DNA from: Dehalococcoidia bacterium
Lineage (GTDB): Bacteria > Chloroflexota > Dehalococcoidia > Bin125
Assembly: GCA_022825855.1 (NCBI GenBank)
Contig: JAJDWB010000020.1
Span: forward strand, 1 to 64,000
DNA length: 64,000 nt
Direction: 5' to 3'
Positions within the stretch are counted from its first letter, which is position 1. Every line of letters begins with the position of its first letter. Under the pieces are notes generated by a model, which saw nothing but the letters and a program-made list of their open reading frames with translations, did no database searches and was not told the origin of the DNA. This document shows positions 1 through 40,228 of this stretch, in pieces. Made by a program: the position numbers and the translations under genes.

Positions 1-1407
1 GGCGCCCATCACGTCGGGCCTGGTGCGCTGGTCCGCGCCGCCGGGCAGGATCAACTCCCGAGACCTCTGCGTGGGCGGCCAGATCTGCGACTTGAGCGTC
101 GGATCCTCGGGCGCGAACTCGCGCAGCGACGACACGTTGGCCGAGATCGAGGGAACCGGGTTCTTCGGATCGAAGAGATAACTGGAGGAGCCTCCGTCCT
201 CTCCTGCTGCCTCGGAAGCCAGGCCGCCCTCAGGCTGGAGGAACCAGTCGATCGTCTGCGCCTGAGCGGGAGGCCAGGCCGACTCGTCGCGCCACTCGCC
301 GCCGTGGTCCATTCGGCCCGACGCGATCCGGCGCCCGCTGCCGCCGCCCATCACGAACATCTTGACCGGCGGCATCGCCGCCCAGCCGCTGTCGAGGTCC
401 TTGAGCGTGTGGTCGAAGAACTGCAAGCGCAAATCGGAGATGCTCGGCGCGAGATTACCTGATGTCGGCGCGGTCGGGCCGAAGTCGACATCGCCCGACC
501 AGGTCCGGTCGAGCGTCACTTCGCCGTGGGTCCAGGGACCCATGAGCAGGTACTGGGGCGACGACATCGCCTCGGAGAAGGCCATGAACGATTCAGTTGT
601 GGCCCGCGTGTAGCTGTCATACCAGCCGCCCGAGTAGACGCTGGGCACGTCGGCGGTCTGGCCGATAAATCGCTCGAAGTTCATCGAGGGCAGCTGCCAG
701 AGCCAATCGTCCTCGCGCCCGAGGGTGAGCAAATCGATCGCCCAGCGCTCGTAGTCCTGCGTCAGAGCAAGCGGCGTGTCGCCGTCGCGCCAGGGCAGAT
801 TGTTGAGGTGGCCGCGCAGGTCGACGGCGGCCTGGTCGAGCGCGGCGTAGAGCGCCGCATCGCCGACCGCTTCGGGGCTCACCGGAGCATTCCAGAAGGC
901 CCAGGCCAGCCAGCGCAGCTCGAGCGCGCCGCCTTGCCGCAACGACGAGGTCAACCCGTTGAAGGCGCCCTGGTTGACCCACATCGCCGACAGGTGGGGC
1001 GGGTGCTGCGTCGCAGCGGCCGACTGCACCCAACCCATGTAGGAGGTGCCCACGGTGCCGACCTTGCCGGTCGACCAGGGCTGTTCGGCCAGCCACTCGA
1101 TCGTGTCGTAGCCGTCCTCGGCCTCGTTCTTGAGCAGGTAGAAGTCGCCCTCCGAGGCGAATCGGCCGCGCACATCCTGGACGATCCGCGCATAGCCGCG
1201 CCTGGCCCACCATTCGGCGTCGGCGGCGAAGCCCAGTTTGTCGTACGGCGTCCGCGTCAGCAGCGTCGGCCACGATCCCGGAAGCGCGCTGCCGTCTCGG
1301 GCCGGCAGATACACGTCGGTGGCCAGCGAGACGCCGTCGCGCATCGGCACCCGTCGGTTGCGCTGGATCACGACTTCAAACTCAGGTCGCGAGTGTTGAC
1401 GGCTCAT
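1..1407 (-). CDS. CocE/NonD-family alpha/beta hydrolase (X-Pro dipeptidyl-peptidase S15 type), 3' end outside window
   Basis: The frame is open from an ATG at 1407 to the window edge, so the C-terminus is missing. An AGAGGAG ribosome site precedes the start, and the stop of the upstream MBL gene lies 1 bp away, so the two are probably co-transcribed. The N-terminus reads as a typical CocE entry (MRDGVSLATDVYLPA), followed by RTPYDK, the nucleophile elbow GTSYMGW (Ser as nucleophile), the YDSY segment and a PWTHG motif, all in the order usual for the S15/CocE family. The visible C-terminal part begins the jelly-roll domain (GEWRDESAWPP). Family members hydrolyse acyl esters or amides, including cocaine-type esters and X-Pro peptides; the real substrate cannot be read from sequence. 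No signal peptide is seen, suggesting a cytosolic enzyme. Confidence 0.88.
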   Translation of the reverse strand, partial: MSRQHSRPEFEVVIQRNRRVPMRDGVSLATDVYLPARDGSALPGSWPTLLTRTPYDKLGFAADAEWWARRGYARIVQDVRGRFASEGDFYLLKNEAEDGYDTIEWLAEQPWSTGKVGTVGTSYMGWVQSAAATQHPPHLSAMWVNQGAFNGLTSSLRQGGALELRWLAWAFWNAPVSPEAVGDAALYAALDQAAVDLRGHLNNLPWRDGDTPLALTQDYERWAIDLLTLGREDDWLWQLPSMNFERFIGQTADVPSVYSGGWYDSYTRATTESFMAFSEAMSSPQYLLMGPWTHGEVTLDRTWSGDVDFGPTAPTSGNLAPSISDLRLQFFDHTLKDLDSGWAAMPPVKMFVMGGGSGRRIASGRMDHGGEWRDESAWPPAQAQTIDWFLQPEGGLASEAAGEDGGSSSYLFDPKNPVPSISANVSSLREFAPEDPTLKSQIWPPTQRSRELILPGGADQRTRPDVMGA

Positions 1408-1408
1408 C

Positions 1409-2068
1409 TCAGACTCCTCTGGCCAACAGCGGGGCGACGGTCGGCGCGGAGGGAATCGACGATCGCGTGACATTGATGTGGTTGTCGCCCGGCGGATCGA
1501 CGGTCACGCCCATCTCACGCAGAAACGCGGACAGCGGTTCCAGCCCGGTCTCCAGCTCGCCGGCCGACTCGGGCTGGTAGAGCATCGGAATCACCAGAGG
1601 TGCGGCAATCGAGTTGGCCACGTCGGCCGCCGCCTGGGCCGAGAGATGCGCGCCGCCGCCGCAGGGCAGCAGGACGACATCGGCGCGGCGCAACTCCTCC
1701 AGGGCATCGCCTTGCGGCAGCCCCTGCAAGTCGCCGAGATGGGCGACGATGATCTCGTCGATCGTGATCACGAACGCGACGTTGCGTGATCCGTCGCGCC
1801 CGGGAGTCTTGACTCCCGTGGCGAGCACGCGCTTGACCTCGTACTCTCCCGGCGCATCGAGCGGCCGGGAGAGGCTGGAGGCTTCGAGCGCAACTCCGTC
1901 GATCCAGTTATGCGCGGGGTCGGCGGCGCGCGAGACCGTGACGATGTCGGCGCCGGGGCGATTGATGCGGAAGCCGGTCTGGGGCGCGCAGGGATCCATC
2001 ACGACTGCGGCCTCGCGCCCGCGCAGCCGGAATGCGGCGTGTCCGTACCAGGCGATGTCCATAGCCAC
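1409..2068 (-). CDS. MBL-fold metallo-hydrolase-like protein, metal site degenerate
   Basis: The protein (219 aa) has the layout of small UPF0173/UlaG-like metallo-beta-lactamase-fold proteins: WYGHAAFRL at the start, VVMDPC, ADIVTVS, a GEYEV segment and HLGDL near residue 110. The HxHxDH metal motif expected after ADIVTVS (residues 41-46) is not intact; SRAADPAHN stands there. The MHY motif expected after VIP reads MLY (residues 162-164). The fold is therefore recognisable, but hydrolase activity is doubtful. A second in-frame ATG two codons downstream of the start is an alternative. It sits between a ketosynthase-like gene and the CocE hydrolase on the same strand, with the CocE start 1 bp after its stop. 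Function unknown. Confidence 0.8.
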   Translation of the reverse strand: MAMDIAWYGHAAFRLRGREAAVVMDPCAPQTGFRINRPGADIVTVSRAADPAHNWIDGVALEASSLSRPLDAPGEYEVKRVLATGVKTPGRDGSRNVAFVITIDEIIVAHLGDLQGLPQGDALEELRRADVVLLPCGGGAHLSAQAAADVANSIAAPLVIPMLYQPESAGELETGLEPLSAFLREMGVTVDPPGDNHINVTRSSIPSAPTVAPLLARGV

Positions 2069-2124: not shown

Positions 2125-3372
2125 TCAGTTGATCACGACCGGCAATTCGTCGCCCGCTTGGGCGATGTGAGGCAGCAGCACCAGCGCGGCGTTCTGGCCG
2201 TGCGTCCCGTAGGCCGCGGTAGCCGCTCCCACGATCCGATCCTCGACCGACTCCCGCACGAAGCCCAGCTTGCAGGCGATGTCCTCTTCCTCGTGAGTCG
2301 CGTGCGGCGGGATCCTGCGTTGATCGACGATCTGGGCGGCGGCCAGGGCCGAGAGCGCGCCGGACGCGCCGACCGTGTAGCCCACGTTGGGCGACACCGT
2401 CGCGGCGTACATGTCCAACGTTCGCCGGCCGAAGGCGCGTTCGATGATGTCGGTCTCGCGCTCGTCGCCGGGACCGGAGCCGAGTCCCGCCGCGACGACC
2501 ACGTCGATATCCGAGGGCGAGACCTCGCCGCCCAGCAGCGCGTCGCCGGTGGCGCGGCGGGCGATCTCGATATCGGTCGGTGCGAATCCGTCGCCCATCG
2601 GACCGGCAGTCATCGCCTCGCCGCCGACCTCGGCATAGATGTGTACGCCGCGCTGGGCGGCGAGCTGGCGATCTTCGAGCATCAGCGCCGCCGCCCCTTC
2701 GGCCAGGATCATGCCCCGCCGGTTGACGTCGAACGGGCGCTGAGCGCGCGGGTCGTCGCCGGGATCGAGTAGTGCCGAGGCCTCGTATGCATCCCAGACC
2801 TCCGGACGCAGCGGCGCTTCCGCGCCGATCGCGAGCGCCGCGCGGACGAGGCCGGAACGGATCATCTGCGCGGCCAGGGCGATCGCGCCGATTCCCGAAG
2901 CACCGCCCATAGAGACTGTGAGCACGGGACCGGCGATGTCCAGTCCCAACGACGCGCCGGAGAGCCCGGATCCCAGACCGGCCCAGCCCTGCCCGGCGCC
3001 GGGATGCGCGATCCCGGTGACCGCGCCGACCACGAACGCGTTCTGCTGATTGAACTCGATCCGCGCATCGGTCTGCGCCTGGATCGCCGCATCGAGGGCG
3101 AGCTGGGAGGCGCGATCCATGCGCGCGAGCAGCCACTCGGGCGCGCCCGACGGGCCCTGCCAGGTGTCGGGGAGCTGTCCCGCCGCGGCGGGTCGGGATG
3201 CCTCGAAGGCCGTCAGCGGCGATGTGCAGACTCGACCCTCGCAGAGCGCCGCCCAGAAGTCGGCAGCGGAGAGACCGGCCGCCGTGACCGCGCCCAGGCC
3301 GGTGATCACCACGCGACGCCGTTCGCCGGCTTCCTCGGCTCGCACGCCCCGGCCGATGCCTCCGCTGACCAT
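2125..3372 (-). CDS. beta-ketoacyl synthase homologue lacking catalytic Cys-His-His (chain-length-factor-like)
   Basis: The 415-aa protein has the thiolase-fold ketosynthase layout: VVITGLGAVTAAG near residues 21-33, the RPFDVNRRGMILAEGAAALML block near 212-231 and an NVGYTVGASGA segment near 329-339. The three catalytic positions are changed. The nucleophile motif reads SMGGASG, with Gly at the Cys position (about 157). The AHGT motif reads AAGLGSG (His lost, about 296). The GH of the second His motif is GY (Tyr332). It should therefore not condense acyl chains by itself; ketosynthase beta subunits (chain length factors) of type II polyketide systems are known examples of such loss. No partner ketosynthase, ACP or ketoreductase is adjacent; an intact FabF is encoded at 38945-40228. 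GGGAG precedes the ATG. The gene diverges from hrcA. Confidence 0.82.
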   Translation of the reverse strand: MVSGGIGRGVRAEEAGERRRVVITGLGAVTAAGLSAADFWAALCEGRVCTSPLTAFEASRPAAAGQLPDTWQGPSGAPEWLLARMDRASQLALDAAIQAQTDARIEFNQQNAFVVGAVTGIAHPGAGQGWAGLGSGLSGASLGLDIAGPVLTVSMGGASGIGAIALAAQMIRSGLVRAALAIGAEAPLRPEVWDAYEASALLDPGDDPRAQRPFDVNRRGMILAEGAAALMLEDRQLAAQRGVHIYAEVGGEAMTAGPMGDGFAPTDIEIARRATGDALLGGEVSPSDIDVVVAAGLGSGPGDERETDIIERAFGRRTLDMYAATVSPNVGYTVGASGALSALAAAQIVDQRRIPPHATHEEEDIACKLGFVRESVEDRIVGAATAAYGTHGQNAALVLLPHIAQAGDELPVVIN

Positions 3373-3474: not shown

Positions 3475-3501
3475 TTAGCACTCTCCCTCCGAGAGTGCTA
3501 A
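3475..3501 (+). promoter_or_regulatory. CIRCE operator (HrcA binding site), perfect consensus
   Basis: The arms TTAGCACTC (3475-3483) and GAGTGCTAA (3493-3501) are perfect inverted repeats separated by 9 bp, exactly the CIRCE consensus. The element lies 48 bp upstream of the hrcA start and just after the predicted -10 box. HrcA, encoded by the first gene of the operon, is expected to bind here and repress the operon until heat shock diverts the GroE chaperonin. No other copy was noticed in the window. Confidence 0.97.
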
Positions 3502-3549: not shown

Positions 3550-4668
3550 ATGTCCTCTCACCTGTCTACCCAGGAGTTGTCCCAGCGACGGGCCGGCATC
3601 CTGCAGTTGGTCGTCCAGGATTACATAGAGACCGCCACGCCAGTGGCCTCGCGGCATGTGGTCGAGAAGTACGCCCTGCCCGCCTCTCCGGCGACGATCC
3701 GGCATGAAATGCACGCGCTCGAGCAGGATGGCTATCTGACGCATCCGCACACTTCGGCCGGCCGCGTGCCCTCGAACCTCGGCTACCGACATTTCGTTCA
3801 ATCACTGATGGGCCACGCCGAACTGGGCCTGGCCGAGCAGGCGCAAGTCAGGCACCAGTTTTTCCAGGCCGCGCCCTCGGTCGACGAGTGGGTCGAGCTG
3901 GCCGCCAACGTGCTGGCCCGCTCTTTGGGTCTGCTGGTCATCGTCGCGCCGCCCCATCCCGAGCAATTGCGGGTACGGCAAGTCGAGCTGATTTCGCTCA
4001 ACGAGTTGCTTGTGCTGATGATCGTGGTGGTCCAGGAAGCGCGCATGATTCGCCAACTGATGCCGCTGCCGCAACCGGTCGAGGTGGACGAACTGGACGA
4101 CCTGGCCGGCCGACTCTCCGGCGCACTGCGCGGACACTCGGCCAACGAGGTGCGCGAGGCGGCCCGGGCGGCGCTCGATTCGCCCGATACGCATCCCGTT
4201 CAGCACTTCGTGCTCGACACGCTCGCCCAGGTGCTCGATCGCGACGCCCGCCGGGCAGGCGTACCCGCCATCGCCGGACTCGGCGGCATGATGGCGCAAC
4301 CCGAGTTCCAGCAGGAGCCCGAGCGGTCGCTGGAACTGATCGAACTTGTCGACCAGCACGCCGCCGAAGATCTGATTCCGCCCGAGGTGATTGAAGACTC
4401 GATGCACGCCGGCGAGATGCACGTGCTGATCGGCGATGACTATCCCAATGAATTGCTGCAGGAGTGCTCGCTCGTGCTCGCGCCGTACGGATCCACGACC
4501 GGCGCTTCGGTTAGCGCCTTTCGCGCGGGCGGCGGTCCCGAGGTACCGGGATACGTGGGCATCGTCGGACCTACTCGAATGAACTATCCGCGCAGCATCG
4601 CCGCCGCGCGCTTCTACTCGCGACTGTTGCAGGAGATGATCGACGCCGTCTATGGAGCGAGCCAATGA
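3550..4668 (+). CDS. hrcA: heat-inducible transcription repressor HrcA
   Basis: This 372-aa protein begins with the HrcA winged-helix domain (about residues 8-75): RRAGILQLVVQDYIET, then PVASRHVVEKY, PASPATIRHEM and GYLTHPHTSAGRVPS, the hallmark recognition and wing segments. The remainder is the GAF-like dimerisation domain, ending with GIVGPTRMNYPRSIAAARFY, a C-terminal signature of the family. HrcA binds CIRCE, and a perfect CIRCE lies directly upstream, so the operon is autoregulated. Its last bases overlap the start of grpE (ATGA). No strong Shine-Dalgarno is visible before the ATG. Length fits the family. Confidence 0.97.
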   Translation: MSSHLSTQELSQRRAGILQLVVQDYIETATPVASRHVVEKYALPASPATIRHEMHALEQDGYLTHPHTSAGRVPSNLGYRHFVQSLMGHAELGLAEQAQVRHQFFQAAPSVDEWVELAANVLARSLGLLVIVAPPHPEQLRVRQVELISLNELLVLMIVVVQEARMIRQLMPLPQPVEVDELDDLAGRLSGALRGHSANEVREAARAALDSPDTHPVQHFVLDTLAQVLDRDARRAGVPAIAGLGGMMAQPEFQQEPERSLELIELVDQHAAEDLIPPEVIEDSMHAGEMHVLIGDDYPNELLQECSLVLAPYGSTTGASVSAFRAGGGPEVPGYVGIVGPTRMNYPRSIAAARFYSRLLQEMIDAVYGASQ

Positions 4669-37920: not shown

Positions 37921-38985
37921 TTAGCGGGCGGCGTTCCAGCGTTGGGCTCGGCTTGAGAACACGTCGGGATCGGCCGCCCACTCGGCGTAGCCGATCCGGC
38001 CCCGGTCGGTCAGCCAGTTGATGCGTTCGTTGAGCAGTTGCAAGAGCTCGGTGTCTTCGACCGAGACGGTGAATCCGGCGCGCTCGACCAGCGGATCGTA
38101 CGCGGTCACGACGAACGCGCCGTTGCTGTCGCGGGCGGCGTCGGTGTTGCCAAGCTCGCCGCGGGCGAAGGCGTCGATCCGGCCCTCGGCCAGGGCGTTG
38201 AGGTAGGCGTCCTCGTCATTGCCCAGATACATGACCTGGGGCAGGTCTCCTGGCGGCGCGAGACGAGTGCGATCTTCCAGCGCGGGCGACGCGTCGGCGG
38301 CGCCGATCCGGAAGGCGCCGCTGCCGTCGGCCAGATGGGTCTGCTGCGGCGTCTCGACCCGCGTGCCGGCGAGCAGGACGCCGTCCTCGTCGGCGGCGCC
38401 GATCAGTTGCAACAAGCGCGCCTCGCCGGTGGTGCCGGCGACCGCGCCGACGACATCGTCCGCGCGGAGGTCGTCGTGCGAGCCGATGCGGGCGGCGTCG
38501 GCGGCGCGGACCAGGAGCGTCTGGCGGAAGCCGATGTGCGCGTCGGTAAAGGCGACCACGGTGCGGCCGCCGTCCTGGGTGCGCGAATCGAGGATCGTGA
38601 TTCCGCCGCCGGCGAGGTCAAACTCCTCGGTCGCAGGCGCGAGCCAGATGTCGGGCCATTCGGCGATCGGGACGCGGCGGAAGCGGATATCGGTGTTGGC
38701 CATCGACTCCAGCGCGGTGAGCAGGTCGGCCTCGTAGCCGAGATGGACGAGGCCGGGATCGGTGAGGTCGTCGTGCGAGGCGTAACTGACCGGCTCGAAG
38801 TAGGCGAAGAATCCGTAGGTGAGCACGCGTACGTCCGATCGATCGGCCGGTTCTGCGCCGCAGCCGGCGAGCCAGGCTCCGGCGGCCGCGATGAGTATCA
38901 GACACGCGACCAGCGCGGCGGCCCGGCGCGTCAGGCGAGACGGCTCACGAGGCGTCGGATACCCGGCGGAAGACGAGGCAGGCAT
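37921..38985 (-). CDS. family 3 extracellular solute-binding lipoprotein
   Basis: The protein has a basic n-region (SRLTRRA), a hydrophobic core and lipobox LAGC (Cys about 42), then a bilobal periplasmic-binding fold typical of SBP_bac_3: VRVLTYGFFAYFEPVSY, LGYEADLLTALESMA, FDLAGGGITILDSR, RQTLLVRAAD, AGTTGEARLL and GRIDAFARGE. These bind polar amino acids or, in related proteins, act as sensory domains. No permease or ATPase gene is adjacent. The chosen ATG (38985) overlaps fabF by 41 bp; closer to the signal peptide only non-standard starts exist, so the start is uncertain. Confidence 0.85.
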   Translation of the reverse strand: MPASSSAGYPTPREPSRLTRRAAALVACLILIAAAGAWLAGCGAEPADRSDVRVLTYGFFAYFEPVSYASHDDLTDPGLVHLGYEADLLTALESMANTDIRFRRVPIAEWPDIWLAPATEEFDLAGGGITILDSRTQDGGRTVVAFTDAHIGFRQTLLVRAADAARIGSHDDLRADDVVGAVAGTTGEARLLQLIGAADEDGVLLAGTRVETPQQTHLADGSGAFRIGAADASPALEDRTRLAPPGDLPQVMYLGNDEDAYLNALAEGRIDAFARGELGNTDAARDSNGAFVVTAYDPLVERAGFTVSVEDTELLQLLNERINWLTDRGRIGYAEWAADPDVFSSRAQRWNAAR

Positions 38986-40228
38986 TCTGGCCGCCGAAGC
39001 CGAACGAGTTCTTGAGCACGGCGTTGACCTCGGCGCTGCGCGACTGGTTGGGCACATAATCCAGGTCGCAGTCCGGATCGGGCGTGGTGTAGTTGATCGT
39101 GGGGTGGATGCGGCCGTCGGTGATTGATTTGATCGCGGCGATCGATTCAAGGCCGCCGGCGCCGCCGAAGATGTGGCCTATCATCGACTTGGTCGAGGAG
39201 ACGGGAACATTGCGGGCGGCTTCGCCCAGGGCGACCTTGATGGCGCGGGTCTCCGAGGCATCGTTGAGCGGGGTCGAGGTGCCGTGCGCGTTGACGTAGT
39301 CGATGGCCTCAGGTTCGATCCCGGCGTCGGCCAGCGCCCAGTTGATGGCGCGAATCGGACCGGCGCCGTTGGCGTCGGGCATGACCAGGTGATGCGCGTC
39401 GGCGGAGGAGCCGAAGCCGGCCAACTCGACCTGCGCCTCGACGCCGCGTCGGCGCGCCGACTCCTCGGACTCGAGCACGATGATCCCGGCGCCTTCGCCG
39501 GGGACAAAGCCGTCGCGGTCGGCGTCGAAGGGGCGCGAGGCCGCGGTGGGGTCGTGGTTCTGCGTGGTCAGGGCACGCATCACGGCGAAACCGCCCAGCC
39601 CGAGCTGGCAGAATCCCGCCTCGGCGCCACCGGAGATGACGATGTCGGCGAGTCCGTTGCGGATCACGTTGGCGGCGTCGCCGAGAGCCTGAGTGCCGGC
39701 GGCGCAGGCTGTGACCACGGTCGTGTTGTAGCCCAGCAGGCCGAACTGCATGGCGATGTTGGCGGCAGCCATGTTGGGCAGGACCTTGGGCAGGAAGAGC
39801 GGATCGAGCCGCATCCCGCCGCGGTCGAAAAGCGTGCTCGCGGTGGCCTGGATCTCCGGATAGCCGCCGGCCCCGTTACCCAACACGACGCCGATCCGGC
39901 TGCGGTCGACGGCATCCAGTTCGAGCTGGGCGTCTTCGATCGCCTCTTTCGCGGCGGCGACGGCGAACTGGGTGAAGCGCGCCATGCGGCGGGCCGACTT
40001 GCGGTCGATGAAGTCGCGCGGTTCGAAATCGCGGATCTCGCCGCCGATCGTGCAACTGAAGCCGGAGACGTCGAAGTTCTCGATCGGCTTGATTGCGCTC
40101 TCCCCGGCGAGCAACTTCTCCCACAGCAAGCCGACGCCGGGTCCATAGGGGGAGACGGCGCCCATGCCGGTGATCAGCACTCTGGGGCGATCGTTGCGGG
40201 CGGCGGCCGCGTCCTGGGATACAGTCAT
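38945..40228 (-). CDS. fabF: beta-ketoacyl-ACP synthase II
   Basis: FabF (427 aa) condenses malonyl-ACP with acyl-ACP in fatty-acid elongation. All catalytic residues are present: Cys175 in VVTACAAGTQ, His315 in NAHGTSTPLND and His352 in TKSMIGHIFGGAGG. RPFDADRDGFVPGEGAGI and the C-terminal NSFGFGGQNACLVF complete the family pattern. It overlaps folC upstream (ATGA). It serves as the intact reference for the inactive-looking homologue at 2125-3372. Confidence 0.96.
   Translation of the reverse strand: MTVSQDAAAARNDRPRVLITGMGAVSPYGPGVGLLWEKLLAGESAIKPIENFDVSGFSCTIGGEIRDFEPRDFIDRKSARRMARFTQFAVAAAKEAIEDAQLELDAVDRSRIGVVLGNGAGGYPEIQATASTLFDRGGMRLDPLFLPKVLPNMAAANIAMQFGLLGYNTTVVTACAAGTQALGDAANVIRNGLADIVISGGAEAGFCQLGLGGFAVMRALTTQNHDPTAASRPFDADRDGFVPGEGAGIIVLESEESARRRGVEAQVELAGFGSSADAHHLVMPDANGAGPIRAINWALADAGIEPEAIDYVNAHGTSTPLNDASETRAIKVALGEAARNVPVSSTKSMIGHIFGGAGGLESIAAIKSITDGRIHPTINYTTPDPDCDLDYVPNQSRSAEVNAVLKNSFGFGGQNACLVFRRVSDAS

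Follow-up and report, generated by a model that had tools for sequence, protein, structure and literature searches.

Ketosynthase homologues that have lost catalysis are known as subunits of polyketide-type pathways, where they are encoded beside an active ketosynthase (KS). For the active form, we follow the FabF numbering and residue roles set out in the relevant part of PMC7138838, which names Lys65, Arg68, Lys69, Arg127, Lys128 and Arg206 as the residues on which ACP docks. AmcG, the cyclization factor of cispentacin, is a KS-type protein that lacks the functional motifs and serves its KS as a partner, according to the part of its description cited here (PMC10698177). AmcG and ApeC, as presented in the portions of the two reports drawn on (PMC10698177, PMC8358021), provide a precedent for dead partners with the KS fold. 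In the titles and opening abstract lines covered by our literature search, which lay outside most subscription journals, no protein like the one analyzed below is described.

We analyzed a 415 aa KS homologue encoded in a 64,000-nucleotide stretch of Dehalococcoidia DNA (hereafter the window, meaning the whole of that stretch), and refer to it and its relatives as KS0, a label for the non-catalytic KS homologue (Table 1). Both Pfam ketoacyl-synt domains are recognized in KS0, the N-terminal one at 92.8 bits and the C-terminal one at 46.4 bits. When its residues were mapped by alignment to E. coli FabF, all three catalytic residues were found to be replaced, as were the catalytic Lys335 (Ser327 in KS0) and the gate residue Phe400 (Thr390), so that neither the Cys-His-His triad nor the Lys of FabF/KAS II is present. 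The FabF encoded in the same window, which the original prediction had named as an intact comparison, does keep the full C/H/K/H/F set and scores 554 bits against the FabF equivalog (TIGR03150), above the NCBIfam cut-off of 493.75 bits; KS0 falls below it at 178.1 bits. An AF2 model built from a 53-row alignment reached a pLDDT of 88.2 and a pTM of 0.90, and matched FabF structures over the whole chain (Z 60.4 and 1.6 A over 384 residues against 1e5m). Since most rows of that alignment are active KSs, the model supports the KS fold rather than any state or detail of the pocket. Pfam, the predicted model and the structure match agree in assigning KS0 to the ketosynthase (thiolase-type) fold. 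The original prediction of a KS homologue that has lost all three catalytic residues and kept the remaining fold is therefore upheld, with one correction: Gly157 and Tyr332 were placed correctly, and the proposed Gly296 lies one position off, the residue in question being Ala295.

Table 1. Coordinates of KS0, its landmarks and its neighbours in the window.
Feature	Position	Strand	Remarks
CocE/NonD-family hydrolase	3..1473	minus	extends beyond the start of the window; accessory neighbour that within family f1 occurs in genera g1 and g4 only
MBL-fold protein (TM0207-like, Lactamase_B_3)	1409..2068	minus	lacks most metal ligands; follows KS0 after a gap of 56 bp
KS0	2125..3372	minus	415 aa; ORF, translation, Pfam, residue mapping, AF2 model
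Former gate loop 1 (residues 386-396), AAYGxHGQNAA	2185..2217	minus	without gate Phe; strongly conserved in f1
Tyr332 codon, in place of catalytic His340	2377..2379	minus	alignment to E. coli FabF
Ala295 codon, in place of catalytic His303	2488..2490	minus	alignment to FabF; Ala in 20/20 of the window's family
Former gate loop 2 (residues 257-267), GPxGDGxxPTD	2572..2604	minus	strongly conserved in f1
Gly157 codon, in place of catalytic Cys163	2902..2904	minus	alignment to E. coli FabF
Perfect CIRCE	3475..3501	.	between the divergent KS0 and hrcA genes; 48 bp upstream of hrcA and 102 bp upstream of KS0
hrcA	3550..4668	plus	heads the divergent hrcA-grpE-dnaK-dnaJ genes; named by eye from its sequence and the conserved gene order
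Intact FabF	38945..40228	minus	comparison gene; C/H/K/H/F kept

We searched 393 genomes of the class, and 52 genomes from three families, with profiles and recovered KS0 in four families of Dehalococcoidia. It occurs in all 20 genomes of f1, the family of the window, to which all genomes analyzed from its order belong (five genera), and in 26 of 38 genomes of f33, six of eight of f17 and two of six of f66; the other 12, two and four genomes, respectively, fell below the threshold used. Within f1, the 19 other proteins are 51-84% identical to that of the window, and the reading frame is open and free of stops in every genome. Cys163 and His303 are absent from all 54 KS0 relatives of the four families. 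The other KSs of the same alignment keep C/H/K/H in 33 of 33 rows (31 distinct genes, two of them entered twice), and a second alignment shows C/H/K/H/F in all 41 other KSs, namely the FabF of the window and 40 proteins from viral contigs. As read from these residues, the known KS chemistry is unusable by KS0. The replacements at the Cys163 and His303 positions differ by family: Gly or Ala and Ala in f1, Gly and Tyr in f66, and Ala and Ser or Thr in f17. Because f66 and f17 retain His340 and Lys335, which for the most part are gone from f1 and f33, what all four families have lost in common is the Cys and the first His. In f33 (for example L122 7011-8135, minus strand), Glu occupies the place of Cys163 in 25 of 26 proteins and Cys that of His303 in 22 of 26. 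This exchange is conserved and might form a new site.

A sample of 400 genomes from the phylum gave seven matches at E <= 1e-108, all from f1, f33 or f17; those members of f33 that evolve fastest would escape this threshold, and the seven of 400 are to be read as matches at that threshold only. A first scan of viral contigs with the FabF of the window returned no matches. We also recorded 80 loci with KS relatives on viral contigs (L228-L307), some of these contigs being as long as ~220 kb, and the 40 proteins that were aligned keep the full catalytic set.

The gene that follows KS0 encodes an MBL-fold protein whose profile has TM0207 (1vjn) as its best PDB match (E 8e-32). The protein of the window differs from TM0207 in keeping only three of the seven ligand-motif residues, and across all 20 members of f1 two to four of the seven remain; IPMH has become IPML, and the HxHxDH motif is mostly gone in 20/20. 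The HxHxDH and distal His/Asp ligands of the TM0207/UPF0173 metallo-hydrolases are accordingly not found in this neighbour, and judged by its ligands it is a pseudoenzyme too. The gene is nevertheless conserved, with a dN/dS of 0.08-0.10. We aligned 74 MBL-fold proteins, which came from the loci that we had fetched rather than from a random draw. In families without KS0, at least five of the seven ligands are kept in 20 of 21 families (26 of 28 rows), the exception being f50. Among the families with KS0, the ligands are lost in f1 (20/20), f33 (18/18) and f17 (3/3), and at least five of seven are kept in f66 (5/5). Counted by family, ligand loss thus affects three of four with KS0 and one of 21 without it (Fisher one-sided ~0.007, computed by hand and uncorrected for kinship, with about four lineages involved). 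The families with KS0 do not form one group on the MBL tree (4 changes), and this scatter makes one gain followed by several losses indistinguishable from transfer.

The two genes are also linked. The proposed linkage to the MBL gene holds in all 20 genomes of the order, mostly with gaps of <130 bp and in three cases of 0.4-1.2 kb, and the two genes are probably co-transcribed. In f33, the MBL gene adjoins KS0 in 20 of 26 loci, lies within 3 kb in two more, and is missing from the stretch in three, with one KS0 at a contig end; adjacency is seen in both f66 loci and in none of the six f17 loci, one of which is cut off by a contig end. The CocE gene, which had been linked to KS0 in the same way, comes next in the locus in all 15 genomes of the window's genus and in G017, i.e., in 16 of 20 genomes of the order, and is absent there in the four other members of f1. 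The synteny check put forward with the original prediction therefore bears out the MBL gene and weakens the case for CocE, which belongs to the window's genus and one other. The original prediction had noted neither the loss of metal ligands in the MBL-fold neighbour nor the ancestral position of fabH next to hrcA.

The gene order around hrcA offers a view of how KS0 came to its position. Near hrcA-grpE-dnaK, genomes of the class often carry hrcA with fabH divergent from it and the MBL gene beyond fabH, the latter two being adjacent or separated by a BioY-like or sodium-symporter-like gene (the middle genes were named by eye); fabH-MBL near hrcA occurs in many families. In f66, two genomes (G149, G217) have hrcA and fabH-KS0-MBL, and three (G168, G198, G234) have hrcA and fabH-MBL; in f17, G208 has hrcA and fabH-KS0, and G069 has fabH-KS0. 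fabH thus lies directly upstream of KS0 in both f66 loci and in two of six f17 loci, and both ACP_syn_III domains are present in the FabH of f66. Loci in which KS0 directly follows an ACP_syn_III (FabH) gene include L112 (5519-6754), L115 (4484-5713), L174 and L172. The f1 order is hrcA and KS0-MBL in all 19 loci whose contig reaches hrcA, with KS0 standing where relatives have fabH, and none of the 20 f1 genomes gave a FabH match. At E <= 1e-10, FabH was matched in 121 of 294 genomes, with no f33 genome among them. The occurrence of fabH-KS0 in f66 and f17 and of fabH-MBL elsewhere, together with the absence of FabH matches from f1, suggests that KS0 probably entered the locus on the downstream side of fabH, which f1 lost later. 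We considered KS0 as a replacement for FabH and rejected this, since other families lack both a FabH match and a hit at the level of KS0, f66 and f17 have both proteins, and the residues for condensation and decarboxylation are missing from KS0.

Our preferred reading, to which we give a probability of about 0.4, is that KS0 holds a partner or ligand, most likely in a non-catalytic complex that includes its MBL-fold neighbour, an active KS or both, and so modulates fatty-acid synthesis. A FabF-type KS would have lost catalysis long ago and been kept as a binding-only, presumably dimeric subunit. The origin of its gene would lie in a locus for fatty-acid synthesis (fabH-KS0-MBL, running divergently from hrcA), a history that suggests a role for the protein in lipid metabolism. 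Most likely complexed with its MBL-fold neighbour and/or an active KS of fatty-acid synthesis, KS0 would modulate that pathway while itself condensing nothing. It might hold the MBL-fold protein encoded next to it, an intact KS of fatty-acid synthesis or a lipid-type ligand. Pairing with the MBL-fold protein is proposed because of the linkage and the joint loss of active sites, and pairing with a KS because of the precedent of AmcG and ApeC and the fatty-acid ancestry of the locus; KS0 and the pseudo-MBL alike have probably taken on binding in place of chemistry. The unlinked genes of f17, and an f66 KS0 that sits beside a fully or nearly fully liganded MBL-fold protein, count against pairing between these two. 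Against the reading as a whole also stand the patchy occurrence of KS0 in f66, f17 and f33, the placement of the four intact KSs of this genome elsewhere, and the gate-loop conservation of f1, which f33 does not share. In a more specific version, which we regard as speculative and rather improbable, a KS and an MBL-fold hydrolase would have lost their activities together and survived as a dedicated non-catalytic complex for sensing or regulating lipid synthesis in Dehalococcoidia, outside polyketide systems, with ACP docking abandoned and the pocket entrance rebuilt for a new ligand or partner.

The surface and the pocket entrance of KS0 depart from those of FabF in ways that bear on what it could bind. 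Five of the six ACP-docking positions are replaced or deleted in f1, where Arg at 69 remains in 19 of 20 proteins, so the FabF/KAS II docking patch as a whole is not found; the active KSs of the class carry Lys or Arg at 65, 68 and 69 in 28, 27 and 25 of 28 rows. The stretch 127-132 is deleted in all 20 f1 proteins and in the five f17 proteins examined, and ~25 residues of the cap beside the pocket are missing in both families. These losses disfavour a role in binding acyl-ACP, and from its docking residues KS0 should not be presented to ACP in the manner of FabF. Of what was suggested at the outset, the stand-alone dead KS homologue agrees with our findings and the repurposed acyl-binding protein loses ground; the distant FabF would be a candidate partner among four intact KSs in the genome, not the only one. 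In f1, the two former gate loops are strongly conserved, and only 0.5% (loop 1) and 1.7% (loop 2) of random column sets are equally so. We found 43 residues that are near-invariant in f1 and rare in active KSs, among them many in loop 2 as well as Ala295, His123, His357 and Tyr388. Judging from this pattern, the pocket entrance is re-specified in f1 rather than left to drift. The gate loops of f33 are of average conservation and helix 62-70 is conserved instead, which suggests that the families may have gone different routes.

Such re-specification could also mean that the former pocket of KS0 now takes a different ligand, or houses a new active site unlike that of a KS, and that KS0 binds or transforms a small molecule there. 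The family-specific residues are in keeping with this idea, in particular the invariant His123, Asp261, Ala295, His357 and Tyr388 of f1, the reshaped gate loops, and the Glu and Cys found in f33. The new residues differ between families, however, so that they define no single conserved new site, and we consider neofunctionalization of this kind doubtful.

The complex-forming role that we favour does not presuppose a particular partner. A narrower possibility is that KS0 resembles a chain length factor (CLF): it would occur in an obligate heterodimer, its partner being an intact KS (one of the two FabFs or the tandem pair on contig C22) whose pocket it shapes. Dead KS homologues do occur in complex with active KSs, as with 1tqy_B and 9s5h_C among our matches and with AmcG and ApeC, and the fatty-acid-synthesis ancestry of the locus fits this picture. 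The genome of the window has five KS genes, of which four are intact (two single FabFs and the tandem pair), and all four are located away from KS0; in the loci examined, no intact FabF-type KS lies beside KS0. The loss of most docking residues and, in f1 and f17, of the cap residues also speaks against this possibility, as do the residues at the Cys position, which are Gly, Ala or Glu and not the Gln of CLFs. The tandem pair (G000:C22:14166-16222, locus L067) belongs to a fabG-fabD-KS-KS-acpP cluster, with neighbours named by eye from sequence, in which both KSs are intact; the genome has no FabH match.

Phylogeny gives a mixed answer on kinship with CLFs. In a tree of 68 rows, the 35 KS0 rows fall on one side of a branch with support of 95/93, and of one with 98 (SH-aLRT, quick tree) after the removal of 45 catalytic-motif positions; identity to active KSs is only ~20-35%. 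This separation, with and without the catalytic columns, points to an old origin of KS0, which may have lost catalysis long ago. With all columns used, CLFs lie on the active-KS side of the branch. When the catalytic columns are dropped, a clade of KS0 and two Streptomyces CLFs is not rejected, with a p-AU of 0.71 and a likelihood that is slightly higher, by 9.6, and such kinship may therefore exist; KS0 and the CLFs alike form long branches. A CLF-like heterodimer seems unlikely to us.

The divergent hrcA gene raises the further idea that KS0 and the MBL-fold protein form a heat-shock accessory pair, placed under HrcA by CIRCE, which protects lipid metabolism in stress. Sequences matching what we take to be the CIRCE consensus (the HrcA operator) are present with 0-2 mismatches in all 19 KS0/hrcA intergenic regions of f1. 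They are equally present in all seven loci examined outside f1, where fabH or the MBL gene is the one divergent from hrcA. CIRCE precedes hrcA whatever the divergent gene may be and thus belongs to hrcA, for which reason we set it aside as evidence of heat-shock control of KS0. In addition, the KS0 genes of f33 and most of those of f17 show no hrcA in the stretches fetched, and a role in the heat-shock response seems very improbable.

The substitution patterns indicate that KS0 is maintained as a protein. The Nei-Gojobori method, applied with our own script, gives KS0 dN/dS values of 0.127, 0.141 and 0.156 in comparisons with its three closest relatives, similar to those for CocE (0.12-0.14), below those for GrpE (0.18-0.26) and PrmA (0.19-0.23), and to be compared with 0.05-0.07 for DnaK. 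KS0 is under purifying selection. A clade of f1 KS0 with its own FabF is rejected (p-AU 0.027), as is one with all four KSs of its own genome (p-AU 7e-7). For all its lost catalytic residues, then, the chance that KS0 is a decaying pseudogene or a recently broken copy of the local fabF is negligible, given the open frame in 20/20 genomes, the dN/dS of 0.13-0.16, the low identity to active KSs, its own side of the tree and the two rejected clades. The original prediction had named such a recent decayed copy, with raised non-synonymous change, as the outcome that would overturn it; the tree, the rejected clades and the dN/dS values refute that outcome. KS0 is almost certainly a real, conserved pseudoenzyme that is non-catalytic and under selection.

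Were a fatty-acid KS the partner of KS0, this would point to control of bacterial fatty-acid synthesis through heterodimers; were it the pseudo-MBL, we would be dealing with two pseudoenzymes that evolved together. Genes of this type, 54 in the present set, would be labelled beta-ketoacyl synthases by a domain search and should not be counted as active enzymes.

Among the systems already described, FabF/KAS II (TIGR03150; 1e5m, 4ls5, 1kas) shares the whole fold with KS0 and is its best PDB sequence match, whereas KS0 lacks the Cys-His-His triad, the catalytic Lys, the gate Phe and most of the docking patch, and has a shortened cap. The CLF/KS-beta subunits of type II polyketide synthases (1tqy_B) likewise have the KS fold without the catalytic Cys; KS0 differs from them in having no KS-alpha neighbour in the loci examined, and Gly rather than Gln in the place of the Cys. 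Chain C of 9s5h/9s5i, which is among the better PDB matches, is of KS type and, in the part aligned to KS0, has no triad either; it was solved together with another KS chain (B). AmcG, which we liken to KS0 by description, has its gene in a biosynthetic cluster together with that of its KS, AmcF, according to the part of its report cited above, and KS0 has no such setting. Given its housekeeping locus, its fixation in the lineage, the lack of an active KS as neighbour and a docking patch that is mostly gone, KS0 should not simply be classed as a chain length factor. Non-catalytic KS homologues are thus already known, and what is unusual in KS0 is its housekeeping setting, the disappearance of most of its docking patch and its equally dead neighbour.
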